From assembly GCF_030680935.1 (NCBI RefSeq), contig NZ_JAUXUP010000026.1, positions 1 through 64,000 of the forward strand: a stretch of DNA of 64,000 nt. Direction: 5' to 3'. This document shows positions 8,085-48,849 of the stretch, piece after piece. Numbering within the stretch: position 1 is the first letter of the stretch; each line of letters opens with the position of its first letter. Origin of the DNA: Polaromonas sp. (lineage in GTDB: Bacteria; Pseudomonadota; Gammaproteobacteria; Burkholderiales; Burkholderiaceae_C). The position numbers and the translations under genes were made by a program. The notes beneath the pieces were generated by a model. It saw only the letters and a list, made by a program, of their open reading frames with translations, was not told the DNA's origin and did not search any database.

Positions 8085-8768
8085 ATGACAGCCGAAATCA
8101 TCAATATTCCGCGCGCCGCCCTGCATGAACAGGTAGCCCACCGCCTGCGCCAGATGCTGGTTGAAAACCGCATCGCGCCGGGTGCCAAGCTCAACGAGCG
8201 TGAGCTCAGCGAGGTGCTTCAGGTGTCGCGCACACCCCTGCGCGAGGCCATAAAAATGCTCGCCGCCGAGGGCCTGGTCGAGCTGCTGCCGAACCGCGGC
8301 GCCATTGCGGTGGAGCTGACAGAAACCGATGTGCTCAACACCTTTGAGGTCATGGCCGGGCTGGAAGCGCAATCGGGCGAGTTGGCCGCAGCACGCATCA
8401 CCGACGCTGAATTGGTCGAGATCAAGGCCATGCATTACGAAATGCTGGCGGCCTTTACGCGGCGCGACCTTCCCGCTTACTACCAGCTCAATGCCGCGAT
8501 TCACCGCGCCATCAACAGCGCCGCCAAAAACCCGGTACTCACCGCCACCTACAACCAGGTCAATGCCCGGTTGCAGGCCTTGCGCTTTCGCTCCAACCAG
8601 GATGGCGACAAATGGCGTGCCGCCGTACAGGAGCATGAGCAGATGATTGAAGCACTGGACCGGCGCGACCCGGTCGCCATGCGGGCTGTGCTGCTGGCAC
8701 ACCTGCACAACAAGCGCGCCGTGGTGATGGAACAACTGCGGGCCGGACAACAGGCGGCCAGCGCATGA
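8085..8768 (+). CDS. GntR family (FCD domain) transcriptional regulator
   Basis: MTAEIINIPRAALHEQVAHRLRQMLVENRIAPGAKLNERELSEVLQVSRTPLREAIKMLAAEGLVELLPNRGA. Confidence 0.93.
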   Translation: MTAEIINIPRAALHEQVAHRLRQMLVENRIAPGAKLNERELSEVLQVSRTPLREAIKMLAAEGLVELLPNRGAIAVELTETDVLNTFEVMAGLEAQSGELAAARITDAELVEIKAMHYEMLAAFTRRDLPAYYQLNAAIHRAINSAAKNPVLTATYNQVNARLQALRFRSNQDGDKWRAAVQEHEQMIEALDRRDPVAMRAVLLAHLHNKRAVVMEQLRAGQQAASA

Positions 8769-11700
8769 GCGCCGCCCTGCCCCTGACGCTGACCGGAGAC
8801 ACAGCGGCCCACGCCTACGACAGTGTGGCGCGCATCAGCAATGAAGTGGCCGGCAGGCTGGCTGCGCGACTCGCCAGCGAAACCCAGGGCGAGGTACTTT
8901 TCTCGGCGCCTGACCGTGGCCGTTATGCCACCGATGCGTCGATCTACCAGGTGACACCGGTCGGTGTATTTGTGCCGCGCAGCGCACCCGACGTCAAAAC
9001 CGCGCTCGACATCTGCCGCGACATGGGCGTACCCATGGTGCCGCGCGGCGCAGGCACCAGCCAGTGCGGCCAGACGGTGGGCACCGGCCTGGTGGTCGAC
9101 TATGCCAAACACCTGCGCAACATCATTGATGTCGACGCGGTGGAGCGCACCGCAGAGGTAGAGCCCGGCATTGTGCTCGACCACCTCAACGCAGCCCTGA
9201 AAAAACATGGCCTCTGGTACCCGGTGGATGTGTCCACCAGCGCACAGGCCACGCTGGGCGGCATGGCGGGCAACAACTCTTGCGGCAGCCGCAGCATTGC
9301 CTACGGCAACATGGTGCATAACGTGCTGGGCGCGCAGGCCTGGACATCCGCCAGCCAGCTGCTGCAGCTGGGCTCCTACGCCACCAGCAGCGGCAAGGCA
9401 CGAGAGCTGGGCAACTACGTGCGCTCGCTGGCCGAAGAGCTGCACCCCGCCATCAAGCAGATGTGGCCCAAGGTAATGCGCCGCGTGGGCGGCTACAACC
9501 TGGACATTTTTGACCCGCAGAGTGAGCGGCCCTACACCAGCGACGGCTCGGTCAACCTGGCGCACCTGCTGATCGGAAGCGAAGGCACGCTGGCCCTGAC
9601 CAAATCTCTCACGCTGCGCCTGAGCGAGCTGCCGCGTGCCAAGGTGTTGGGCGTGGTGAACTTCCCGACCTTTTACCGCGCCATGGATGCGGCCCAGCAC
9701 ATCGTCAAGATCGGGGATGGCACGCTGACAGCCGTCGAGCTGGTGGACCGCACCATGATTGATCTGTCGCTGCAAAACCCGGCGTTTGCGCCCACCATAC
9801 GCAGCGCGCTGATTGACCAGCCCGCTGCCATCTTGCTGGTCGAGTTTTCGGGTGCGAGCAAGGCCGAGTTGTTGCCCAAACTCAAACGCCTGGGCGAGCT
9901 GATGGGCGATTTGCTGCTGCCCAACTCGGTGGTTGAAATGACGGACGACGCACCGCAGAAAAACCTGTGGGAAGTGCGCAAGGCCGGGCTCAACATCATG
10001 ATGAGCCTCAAGGGCGACGGCAAGCCGGTGAGTTTTATCGAAGACTGTGCCGTGCCCCTGGAGCATCTGGCCGAATACACCGACGCACTGACGGAAGTTT
10101 TCAGAAAATACGGCAGCAAGGGCACCTGGTACGCCCATGCCTCGGTGGGCACCCTGCATGTGCGGCCGATTCTGGACATGCGGCGCGAAGGTGCGCCCAA
10201 GATGCGCGCGATTGCCGAAGAGGCTTCAGAGCTGGTGCGCAAGTTCAAAGGGGCTTACAGCGGCGAACATGGCGACGGCCTGTGCCGGGGGGAGTGGATC
10301 GAGTGGCAGTTTGGCCCGAAGATCAACGAGGCCTTTGCAAAAATCAAGCAGGTCATGGACCCGATCAACCTGCTGAGCCCGGGCCGCATGGTCAACCCGC
10401 CGAAGATGGACGACACGCGGTTGATGCGGTTTGCACCTGGCTACAAAGTCATACCGATCCAGACCGCACTCGACTGGCGCGTCTGGGACGTACAGAACGA
10501 CCCGGTCACCGAGCAAACCAGTGCGCCCGGCAGCGGCGGCGATCCGGCCCAGGGTTTTGCCAAGGCCGTGGAGATGTGCAACAACAACGGCCACTGCCGC
10601 AAGTTCGATGCCGGCACCATGTGCCCCAGCTACAGGGTCACGCGCGACGAAAAACACCTGACGCGGGGCCGCGCCAACACCTTGCGGCTGGCCTTGAGTG
10701 GCCAGCTCAGCGGCCTGGACGCAGCTGACGCCCTTGCCAGCGAGGAGGTCAAGGATGCGCTGGACCTGTGTGTGGGATGCAAGGGCTGCAAGCGCGACTG
10801 CCCCACAGGTGTGGACATGGCGAAGATGAAGGTGGAATTTTTGCACCACTACAAGGCCAGGCACGGCTACACATTGCGCGACAAGCTGGTGGCCCGGCTG
10901 CCCGACTACGCGCACTGGGCCAGCCGGCTGGCACCATTCCTGAACCTGCGCGACAAAATTCCGGGCCTGGCGGCGCTGAGCGAAAAGCTGACCGGTTTTT
11001 CAGCCAGACGCACGCTGCCGCAATGGAAAACGCAAACCTTCTTCAACACCGCACCGAGAGGCGCCACGCGCGCGGAAGTGCTGGCCGCCAGCAAGCCCGT
11101 GGTGCTGTTTGTAGATACCTTCAACGGCACGTTTGAATCACACAACGCCACTTCAGCATTAAAAGTGCTGCAAGCCGCTGGCTACACAGTGCATGTAGCT
11201 ACCAAAACCATAGCAGATGGCAAACACCTGTGTTGCGGCCGCACCTACCTGGCCAGCGGCATGGTGGAAGAAGCGAAGGCCAAGGCGCGCGAGGTGGTCG
11301 ATGCCCTGCTGCCCTTCGCCGAAAAAGGCATCAGCATCGTGGGTCTGGAGCCGTCCTGCCTGCTGACGCTGCGCGACGAGATGCTGGTGATGGGCCTGGG
11401 TGAAGACGCTCACACCATCAGTCAGCACGCCCTGCTGCTGGAAGAGTTTCTGGCCCGCGAAGCCGTTGCGGGCAAGCTGGAAGAACTCAAGGGCAAACTT
11501 CAGGCGGTGGACCAGCCCATCTTGCTGCACGGCCACTGCCACCAGAAAGCCTTTGGTGCGGTCAGCCCCATCATGGAGGTGCTCAAGCTGATTCCTGGTG
11601 CGAAACCAGCATTGATTGAATCGAGTTGCTGCGGCATGGCAGGCAGTTTTGGTTATGAATCCAGTCACTACGAGGTGTCCATGCAGATGGCTGAGTTAAG

Positions 11701-46205: not shown

Positions 46206-46355
46206 CTAGGCACCCGACAGTCGCCGCGCCGACGGCGCACCTGCACGCGGCAGGCTGGCGCTGACCAACGCCGCAGCCAGTGTGACCAGCCACGAGTAAT
46301 ACACCCACACCAGAAAAGCCGCCAGGTCGCATGCCCAGCATTCCGCTGGAGGCCG
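46206..46355 (-). pseudogene. 3' remnant of a membrane protein gene, possibly YihY/BrkB (UPF0761)-like
   Basis: Open frame between stops, not in ORF list (no start): PPAECWACDLAAFLVWVYYSWLVTLAAALVSASLPRAGAPSARRLSGA*. Confidence 0.4.
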
Positions 46356-46405
46356 CTAGAACTCCGGTCTGACAAACAAGCTTTTCCGCCTCCGAGACAT
46401 CGCGT

Positions 46406-46636
46406 TCACCTGAAGATGAACGGAGCGGCTGCCAGCACTGCGCCAATGACAACGATCAGGTAGGTGTTCTGAATGGCGTACGGAAACAGCATCAGCGCAA
46501 GGCCGCTCAGAAAGGGAACAAGCGCGCGTTGCTTCTTGCCGTACAACGCGTAGCCGGCGCCAAGGGACCCAAACAACACGCCCCAGAGGATTGACGAAGT
46601 AGTCACGGTGGTTGCTGTGCGGGCTAGCGTAGACAT
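46406..46636 (-). CDS. Small two/three-TM membrane protein, putative gene-cassette product
   Basis: ...TTSSILWGVLFGSLGAGYALYGKKQRALVPFLSGLALMLFPYAIQNTYLIVVIGAVLAAAPFIFR; real start may be GTG near 46606. Confidence 0.7.
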   Translation of the reverse strand: MSTLARTATTVTTSSILWGVLFGSLGAGYALYGKKQRALVPFLSGLALMLFPYAIQNTYLIVVIGAVLAAAPFIFR

Positions 46637-46708
46637 GACCGGACAACAACACCGCGCGGCGAAACCGCCTTCTGCTGTTGTTGGTCCGCGTCGGTTGACA
46701 TGTTGCCC
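46622..46708 (-). other. attC-like recombination site 2 (degenerate, ~87 bp)
   Basis: Minus strand GGGCAACATGTCAACCGACGCGGACCAACAACA...TGTTGTTGTCCGGTCATGTCTACGCTAGCC: long imperfect hairpin between two ORFs, R-box-like ends diverged. Confidence 0.5.
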
Positions 46709-46709
46709 C

Positions 46710-47222
46710 TCACGCGGCGACCTCCAGCGGCAACACAGGGTAGCCCTGCGATTGCGCGGAGTACGAAAACACCAAGTAGGCCGAGGAGATTTGCCTCATG
46801 GGCCCGAAGCGCTCATTCTTTAATTCTTCTCGAAGTTCCTCAAAGTCTAGGTCGAACTCGTCCGTGAACAGGCACGCGACGACTTCCTTGTACGGGCCGC
46901 CGAGGTATTGCTTCCCGTCCTTCTTCAGAAGTAACCCTCGAATGTGGGCAGCGGCATCACCGGGTTGCCACCGCCGCATGACGTTTTCGCCGCGCGCCGT
47001 TCGGGCTGCTGCTACCGAACAAACGACCTCGGCGACCTCAATAGCGATATGTGCTCCGGAGGGATCGGAGCAAATGCAATCGGGCGGATCGGGTTGCTGC
47101 GGCTTCAACGAATGCCAGCCGAACCCGCGTTCGCGGTTGATGTATGCCACTAGGTGCTCAGCGACGCCCACCTCCTTCTGAGGCTTGTCGGACCACTCGA
47201 AGAAAGGCGCGTACGACTTCAT
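46710..47222 (-). CDS. Hypothetical protein with PD-(D/E)XK-like motif; putative cassette ORF
   Basis: HSLKPQQPDPPDCICSDPSGAHIAIEVAEVV; starts 3 nt after the R' box of attC site 1. Confidence 0.65.
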   Translation of the reverse strand: MKSYAPFFEWSDKPQKEVGVAEHLVAYINRERGFGWHSLKPQQPDPPDCICSDPSGAHIAIEVAEVVCSVAAARTARGENVMRRWQPGDAAAHIRGLLLKKDGKQYLGGPYKEVVACLFTDEFDLDFEELREELKNERFGPMRQISSAYLVFSYSAQSQGYPVLPLEVAA

Positions 47223-47225
47223 GAG

Positions 47226-47283
47226 GGATAACGTTTGAATTCAGTGGACGCCGAAGGCGGTCCGCTGGAATGATGGGTTGGGC
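47226..47283 (-). other. attC site 1 (58 bp, 59-base-element-like)
   Basis: Minus strand GCCCAAC-CCATCATTC-CAGCGGACCGCCTTCGGCGTCCACTG-AATTCAAAC-GTTATCC: R''=GCCCAAC, R'=GTTATCC, imperfect stem, located between ORFs. Confidence 0.75.
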
Positions 47284-47314
47284 GGCAAGTGCCTGGCAGA
47301 TTCGCAATCAAGTG

Positions 47315-47806
47315 CTACTTGACAATGAAAGGCAGCGCTTGAAGCGCTGCATTTGATTTCGTACTGATTTTTATATTTGTGGTTGAACCTATCCCCGCAA
47401 CCAGACCAGTGGATTTTTCAGCTATTTTTGTGGAAATTTCTTTGCCATCGAATGTGGATGACAGGACGTATGCGGTGTTCGGTTTTATGTCCGCATTGAA
47501 CTCGTAGATGGCGTAGACGATGAAGCTGTTCGAAGGACTATCAAGGTTTGACGCCACTTTATACCGATGCTGCCCAGGCTTCAAGCTGTATGTATACGGT
47601 GAGAGGCACCCGTGCCCTGAGCCGATAAATGAACCATCGACTTCGACGAGTGTCACGTACGGCTTATACGTTTTGCCATCTGCTGCGGTAAAAGCTGGGG
47701 CATCGCACGGTACCGGCATGTAAGCGGCATCGCCTCCGCTATACCTGTTCATACTTGTGCAGCCAACCAACCCTGCGACCAGCATAAGGAGAACTGTTCT
47801 TGTCAT
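47315..47806 (-). CDS. Secreted lipoprotein of unknown function, putative cassette ORF
   Basis: MTRTVLLMLVAGLVGCTSMNRYSGG lipobox LVGC; lower GC than flanks. Confidence 0.72.
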   Translation of the reverse strand: MTRTVLLMLVAGLVGCTSMNRYSGGDAAYMPVPCDAPAFTAADGKTYKPYVTLVEVDGSFIGSGHGCLSPYTYSLKPGQHRYKVASNLDSPSNSFIVYAIYEFNADIKPNTAYVLSSTFDGKEISTKIAEKSTGLVAGIGSTTNIKISTKSNAALQALPFIVK

Positions 47807-48102
47807 ACGAGACTCTTTTTCCTTTGCCGCTCAACTTTGATATATCCCGCAAAACTGCGGAATAACATGGCGGCCAATCAGATAACAACGGCAACTGTCG
47901 CTGGAAAAATTGTTCAAAGCCATAGACTTATCTCGCGATGTACTACAAATGCCTGGGTATAACAAAACCGACAAAGTCGCCAGCACTGTTTGACCCTCTC
48001 CCGCTTGCGGCCCCGGCGCAGAGCTTGATGACCTGACTATAACTTTCAAATCGGCCGCTACGGGCACGCCCACCAGCCGGCTGTCTCTGCCTGACTACAC
48101 TC

Positions 48103-48849
48103 GTGCGGATGCGCCCCCCGCCCTCACCGTCCGGCCTCCTGGATCATTTGACCAGCTACTTCTGGAGCGGTGACCTTATCCGCAGCCGAAGTGTCAGTGA
48201 CATCGTGTTGTCGGGCACGCTGGATGTACCTGCGCCACCAGCCTTGCTGCTCGCGGACTGGGAACGTGACATCGCGCAGCAACTGCAACTCGAACCCGGT
48301 GACGTCGAGCCCCTGCCGCTGGCGCGGGCGCGCATGCGCTGGCCGGACTACAAACACTGCGTGCTGGCGGTGGCGGATTGGACGCGTGGGCTGGGTCTGC
48401 AGAAGGTACTGGCCGACTCGGACGTGGCGCTGATGGCCTGCCGCGGGGCAAAGTACCACCATGACGGTGCGCAGTATGGCGGCGCGGCTTTTTGTAACCT
48501 CTTCCTCAGCGACGACAAGGGGCTGGACCTGCATTTCCCGGCCACTGGCCAGCGCATCCCGCTGAGCCGGGGCACGGTGGTGATCTTCGATACGGGGCAG
48601 CCGCACGCGGTGATCAGGCGCGGCAGCAGCGGCTTTGATGCGGCCCACTTTTTGCCGGGAACGGACTGCAGCCAGGTCTTTCTCAGTTGGGAGCTTCCCA
48701 TCGAAGACGCCGATGTCGCACACGCACTTCGCGTCGCTTTCGACGTCGACCCTTCGACTTGCCTGTTGCTGGACGAAGAGCAGGTGTGGCCAGGCGGCGC
48801 ACGGACCACGGTCTGCCCTGCCACCGGTCGCTGGCGCCGTGCGGAGTGA
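48103..48849 (+). CDS. 2OG-Fe(II) oxygenase-like protein
   Basis: YHHDGAQYGGAAFCNLFLSDDKGLDLHFP...RGTVVIFDTGQPHAVIRRG: HxD...H arrangement. Confidence 0.65.
   Translation: MRMRPPPSPSGLLDHLTSYFWSGDLIRSRSVSDIVLSGTLDVPAPPALLLADWERDIAQQLQLEPGDVEPLPLARARMRWPDYKHCVLAVADWTRGLGLQKVLADSDVALMACRGAKYHHDGAQYGGAAFCNLFLSDDKGLDLHFPATGQRIPLSRGTVVIFDTGQPHAVIRRGSSGFDAAHFLPGTDCSQVFLSWELPIEDADVAHALRVAFDVDPSTCLLLDEEQVWPGGARTTVCPATGRWRRAE

Follow-up and report, generated by a model that had tools for sequence, protein, structure and literature searches.

The stretch of Polaromonas DNA analysed here (64,000 nucleotides, hereafter the window) contains what, judged from its sequence, is an integron that has decayed in place, on its own platform, and not a set of cassettes captured at an ectopic site. 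We consider it likely that this locus is a relic platform, one of about nine in the same genome, whose cassettes have been exchanged by an integron integrase (IntI) acting in trans. Starting from a divergent oxygenase-like gene (48103), the locus consists of an intI stub, a leader ORF, an attI site, two gene cassettes, and ORF3, in that order (Table 1). The GC content is 0.50 to 0.58 across approximately 46.75 to 48.2 kb and 0.60 to 0.69 in the surroundings, so the AT-richer patch that a preliminary description had noticed is indeed there.

Table 1. Features of the relic integron locus (positions in the window)
Feature	Position	Strand	Description	Basis
5' stub of lost integron integrase gene	47949..48050	plus	ATG at 47949; first 14 codons readable	
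Leader ORF MALNNFSSDSCRCYLIGRHVIPQFCGIYQS	47831..47923	minus	30 codons; stop codon overlaps the crossover	
attI (family 1)	47829..47886	minus	Crossover between G 47835 and TT 47834-47833; first box GTTGAGC	
Gene cassette 1	47232..47834	minus	603 bp; starts at the attI crossover, ends with the G of R'	Boundaries read from sequence
Cassette 1 ORF	47315..47806	minus	163 aa, putative lipoprotein; lipobox LVGC judged by eye	
attC of cassette 1	47226..47283	minus	58 bp, GCCCAAC...GTTATCC	Covariance model and blastn
Gene cassette 2	46628..47231	minus	604 bp, from TTATCC after the G of the first attC to R' of the degenerate second attC	
Cassette 2 ORF (ORF2)	46710..47222	minus	170 aa	
Degenerate terminal attC of cassette 2	46622..46708	minus	87 bp; R'' GGGCAAC, R' GCTAGCC	
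Native flanking gene (ORF3)	46406..46606	minus	66-aa membrane protein; orthologous, same position in G017:C48 and G081:C10	

When relatives were searched with the patch, the sequence 47886-47833 was found to recur at different loci. It matches at 50 of 54 positions (93%) the element that adjoins an intact integrase gene in G073:C57, and a homologue of the same family (family 1) also adjoins an intact one in G012:C97; these integrases score 442 and 436 bits, respectively, with a cut-off of 265. Because it adjoins intact intI in both genomes, the element is, by this comparison, an attI recombination site. The fixed spacing beside intact intI in the two genomes also led us to reject the idea that the upstream element is a random repeat. 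At nearly all attI copies the conservation stops at GTTRRRY or a near variant, after which the sequences are unrelated. In the window, cassette 1 begins exactly at the attI crossover, and its attC is oriented in the attI direction, as part of an array whose second attC is degenerate. Exact matches to the attI element were found in Polaromonas only, in a pattern scan over 85,462 species.

No intact integrase gene adjoins this attI. The ATG at which the stub begins lies at -114 from the crossover, which is the identical spacing seen for intact intI in G073 and G012. The stub reads MPGYNKTDKVASTV*, compared with MNRYNNPDKVAAPAL in the intact IntI of G073 and MYSYNRNEKIAAPAL, and it grades into the conserved TTTGAAAGTTATAGTC segment at 48050-48035. 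Over 47994-47825 the window matches G026:C31 with 74.6% identity (E = 3.8e-24), and the stub there is recognised as IntI by tblastn (E = 4e-5). The window stub itself went undetected by tblastn, as 14 codons are too few to score, and its assignment is therefore based on the multiple alignment and the match to G026:C31. The earlier statement that the window has no integrase thus holds for an intact gene, but the 5' end of one is still present. The cassettes were correctly described as having no adjacent integrase: the attC is positive in the model search described below, and the intact IntI lies only on another contig. A LexA-like CTG-N10-CAG motif in the intI start region is kept at most of the orphan platforms belonging to loci A and C, where intI is gone; in the window it is degenerate. 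The divergent gene next to the stub (48103-48849), named an oxygenase in the preliminary description, has no Pfam or NCBIfam match above cut-off and only a weak one to Cupin_2, and it is a conserved attI neighbour at loci B and C.

Between the stub and the first cassette, the leader ORF retains its start, frame, and stop in most copies. Its pN/pS is approximately 0.87 and the frames differ little, so we claim no function for the peptide. As its stop codon spans the crossover, the first bases of an inserted cassette determine the stop. As a candidate for the cassette promoter Pc there is a segment with the sequence TTTGAA(A/G)G(T/C)TATAGT, conserved at the attI copies in the multiple alignment, but a promoter scan of the region gave no sigma-70 consensus match. 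A dyad is seen 9-11 bp ahead of the crossover in the attI copies (-36 to crossover), in the forms CCGCA/TGCGG, GAGCA/TGCTC, and CGGCA/TGCCG. Its sequence varies between attI families and its complementarity is kept, and it could be an IntI binding site or an RNA hairpin. The site attI1 seems to have a comparable dyad.

Since Rfam gave no attC match, we trained covariance models on attCs taken from plasmids and from the genome itself, with the window site left out. The training set of model R1 comprised six attCs from plasmids and three from contig C63 of the window genome, and R2 was built from the same kinds of sources; the R2 training set includes several of the Polaromonas attCs reported below, so that R2 results for these are not independent, whereas R1 results are. 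The attC of cassette 1 (47283-47226, minus strand) was found with 62.9 bits and an E value of 7.5e-14 over 140 kb, and with an E value of 1.9e-15 in an unfiltered model search of the 3.5-kb patch. This is the 58-bp GCCCAAC...GTTATCC element that had been proposed as an attC, together with the suggestion of a covariance-model check; the observation that the next ORF (47222-46710) starts 3 nt past the R' box was also right. By blastn the element is 83 to 85% identical to the attCs of the OXA-46, OXA-119, and OXA-732 cassettes and to attCs on two Polaromonas plasmids, 90% identical over 51 bp at the aacA34 cassette, and 75% identical in the cassette preceding aadA5; the OXA-46-type and aadA5-linked cassettes matched are those of class 1 integrons. 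By both the model and these matches, it is a real attC. The G and left end TTGAGC of cassette 1 pair with the R'' box GCCCAAC with one mismatch.

Neither cassette ORF has a Pfam or NCBIfam match. Among 300 other Comamonadaceae genomes searched, the lipoprotein ORF of cassette 1 has no homologue and ORF2 has one, with 34% identity. A scan of the genome contigs found no homologue of ORF2, and its structure prediction without an alignment (pLDDT 39) was unusable. Immediately past the ORF2 stop codon starts the hairpin 46708-46622, which scored below threshold with R1 as well as with R2. At the same locus in G081 (G081:C10), the second cassette has a terminal attC with which the hairpin shares 77% identity, and cassette ends in the G025:C20 array, where other sites are model-positive, match it at up to 83%. 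Based on this homology to the G081 and G025 cassette ends only, we accept it as an attC, and it is best read as a degenerate terminal one in which the GTT core of R' is mutated to GCT. The preliminary description had noted the attC-like layout of this spacer, and the homology bears this out, although both models missed it.

The same description counted three cassette ORFs, of which two are cassettes; the third, ORF3, belongs to the native flank, as its orthologues in G017 and G081 show. ORF3 had been called as 46636-46406, and its true start is probably the GTG at 46606. Beyond it, the window carries at 46208-46320 (minus strand) a C-terminal remnant of a YihY/BrkB-like membrane protein gene (name given by eye), which is complete at the same place in G017 and G081 and mostly deleted in the window genome.

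The window attI is not alone. About nine attI platforms are present in the window genome (G000), together with a single intact integrase gene, the IntI on contig C48, which is the only TIGR02249 match above cut-off in this genome (440 bits). Family-1 attI copies lie on C77 (the window), C28, and C17. Family-2 copies, cognate to the intact IntI, lie beside it on C48 and are dispersed at C36, C31, C9, and C63 with attCs, and C25 carries a further attI variant. A same-strand attC was detected downstream of every attI copy of this genome except the one on C17; no attC was found either at some copies elsewhere, such as G004:C63 and G033:C16. Of 22 testable family-1 copies, none of which contributed to the training of R1, 9 have a downstream same-strand attC by this model (E < 0.05), and a tenth copy with an attC (L118) came from R2. 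Among the relatives sampled, five (G004, G017, G026, G033, and G080) have at least two attI copies each, and a search of them at E <= 1e-60 gave no integrase. Several of the related genomes were assembled from metagenomes and consist of many contigs, but in G026 two copies are 224 kb apart on one contig, so the dispersal is not an assembly effect there. The genome-wide counts come from pattern, DNA, and model searches, in which diverged copies may be missed. In the three-contig genome G067, in which no integrase was detected, contig C1 has two attI-like copies approximately 700 bp apart (L121, around 8219-8267 and 8930-8968).

Grouping the sites by their upstream flanks gives locus groups A (five species), B (the window and G081), C (five), D (three), and E (two), so that as many as five species have attI copies at an orthologous locus. 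Downstream of attI, homology resumes after approximately 0.4 to 1.8 kb at loci A, B, C, and E and, for D, in two of three genomes, wherever the contigs permitted this comparison (G000:C28 is not among them). Despite these orthologous flanks, the first ORF or the sequence directly after attI differs between genomes; the listing of first ORFs ends before the last D and E sites, which are covered by the pairwise comparison. At the locus orthologous to the window, G081 has two other cassettes, and G017 (contig C48) has neither attI nor cassettes, which provides the relative without the patch that had been proposed for comparison. Cassettes are also shared between platforms that are not orthologous: G081:C10 and G017:C61 have one in common (626 bp, 94.7% identical) that ends at the crossovers, and the pairs G073:C86 and G080:C24 (73.5%) and G000:C48 and G083:C4 (89.9%) each share one whose left end is at the crossover.

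These data bear on how the platforms were used. A complete integron would formerly have stood at the window locus. Its integrase gene would have been reduced to a 5' stub of about 14 codons, with the presumed cassette promoter, the leader ORF, and attI retained, and the cassettes with the lipoprotein ORF and ORF2, each with its attC, are found behind attI. Most probably, an IntI supplied in trans would insert, exchange, and excise cassettes at the dispersed attI sites by attI x attC recombination, and several first-position cassettes could then be expressed at once. From the sequence comparisons we infer the action in trans, the promoter activity, and present-day activity at the window site. 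Several findings speak against such a model: the intact IntI of the window genome belongs to the other attI family, the terminal attC of the window is without the GTT core, some attI copies gave no attC, and the promoter scan gave no sigma-70 match. IntI enzymes reportedly prefer their cognate attI.

The most serious alternative, which we hold to be possible but clearly less probable, is that the locus is a dead relic, in which intI was lost, the cassettes became immobile, and a long ancestral array left different members behind at the orthologous sites of different species. The differences in cassette content between such sites could indeed have arisen in this way. The intI stub and the degenerate terminal attC are signs of decay, and clusters of attC sites lacking integron integrases (CALINs) have been proposed to be degraded integrons (PMC9024848). 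Set against this is the cassette shared by G081 and G017. It is 94.7% identical at non-orthologous platforms, compared to 87.7% for the locus B flanks of the same two genomes, and the stub-oxygenase junction is common to both; this cassette therefore probably reached locus B of G081 after the loss of intI in cis, unless the difference merely reflects slower evolution of the cassette than of the flanks. The attI core is also strongly conserved across copies in the multiple alignment, and the genome has an intact IntI. We thus favour the exchange model, in which cassettes probably kept arriving through an integrase in trans after the cis intI had been lost.

It is also conceivable, but unlikely, that the upstream repeat is a self-spreading mobile mini-element, made up of a promoter and attI, and that most sites never had a full integrase. 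Many copies retain just the 5' part of intI beside attI, which would fit. However, the stubs vary in length, with longer remnants at locus A in G000, G004, and G026 (up to approximately aa 90), and the intI of G028:C79 is internally deleted, pointing to separate decay of complete genes. Locus D provides one case of this kind, as G073:C57 has a complete intI and its orthologues in G026 and G075 have none. Remnants of intI also occur at family-2 sites (G004:C91, G080:C24, G024, and G028). Near locus A there are also sequences with approximately 31% identity to aa 89-314 of IntI; we regarded these as belonging to different tyrosine recombinases and left them out. On another contig of the window genome, a fragment with one stop at C10:3737-3940 (minus strand) matches the integron integrase model over its 68 C-terminal positions with 99 bits, and it is possibly another decayed intI. 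Cassette capture at an attG-like ordinary chromosomal site, as first proposed, would account for attC sites without a neighbouring integrase and has precedents in insertions at attG (cited in PMC12901181), but it is very improbable and is refuted for the left end, where the first cassette starts at the crossover of an attI whose homologues adjoin intI and the intI stub lies at the canonical spacing.

Integrons are described as one integrase, typically with one attI and one array, in which only the first cassettes are well expressed. In Polaromonas, by contrast, we may be dealing with a distributed integron, in which one integrase, sometimes absent, feeds many scattered attI platforms, each of which has lost its own intI and retained its promoter region and attI, so that many cassettes would occupy the first, expressed position simultaneously and would not have to queue in a single long array; we judge the chances of this wider reading to be about even. 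If the platforms are used in trans, the limit that one array sets on expression would be bypassed. A literature search found no description of many attI platforms in one chromosome; it covered few subscription journals and is weak evidence. The dispersed multi-attI arrangement appears to be a new form of integron, whereas CALINs themselves are already known. Like a CALIN, the window has attC sites and cassettes without an adjacent intI. It differs in that attI and an intI stub are still there and in the recurrence of attI, of which the genome has copies at about nine loci. IntegronFinder 2 reports CALINs with a default of at least two attC sites (PMC9024848); the window has one attC above the model threshold and a second by homology to the G081 and G025 cassette ends. 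As this program has no attI detection beyond class 1 (PMC9024848), such platforms would be missed. In Xanthomonas, CALINs occur at several conserved chromosomal loci and are said to be mobilisable in trans (PMC12444791). If our reading is true, scattered CALINs would be former platforms whose attI is ignored by current software, and with orphan attI sites the question of where CALINs come from could be put to the test in other genera, for example at the conserved Xanthomonas loci.

The window also resembles a sedentary chromosomal integron, as it is chromosomal, has its attI beside intI (here a relic), and carries mostly uncharacterised attC cassettes. The genome differs from such an integron in that its attI sites are many and their arrays short, where a sedentary integron has a single long array at a single attI, and intI is absent in cis. 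Insertions at attG are likewise cassettes outside a complete integron, but their target is a divergent non-att site, whereas here it is attI. The delta-attI cassettes described in class 1 and 2 integrons (PMC12901181) share with the window an attI away from its usual place beside intI, and theirs is still usable by IntI. In those cassettes an attI fragment replaces attC inside the cassette, whereas the window has a complete attI beside an intI stub in the chromosome. The leader ORF can be compared with ORF-11: both are short ORFs in the attI region that end near the crossover. ORF-11 belongs to attI1 and is reported to aid translation of the first cassette. The leader ORF of the window differs from it in sequence and in length (30 codons), and its stop overlaps the crossover.
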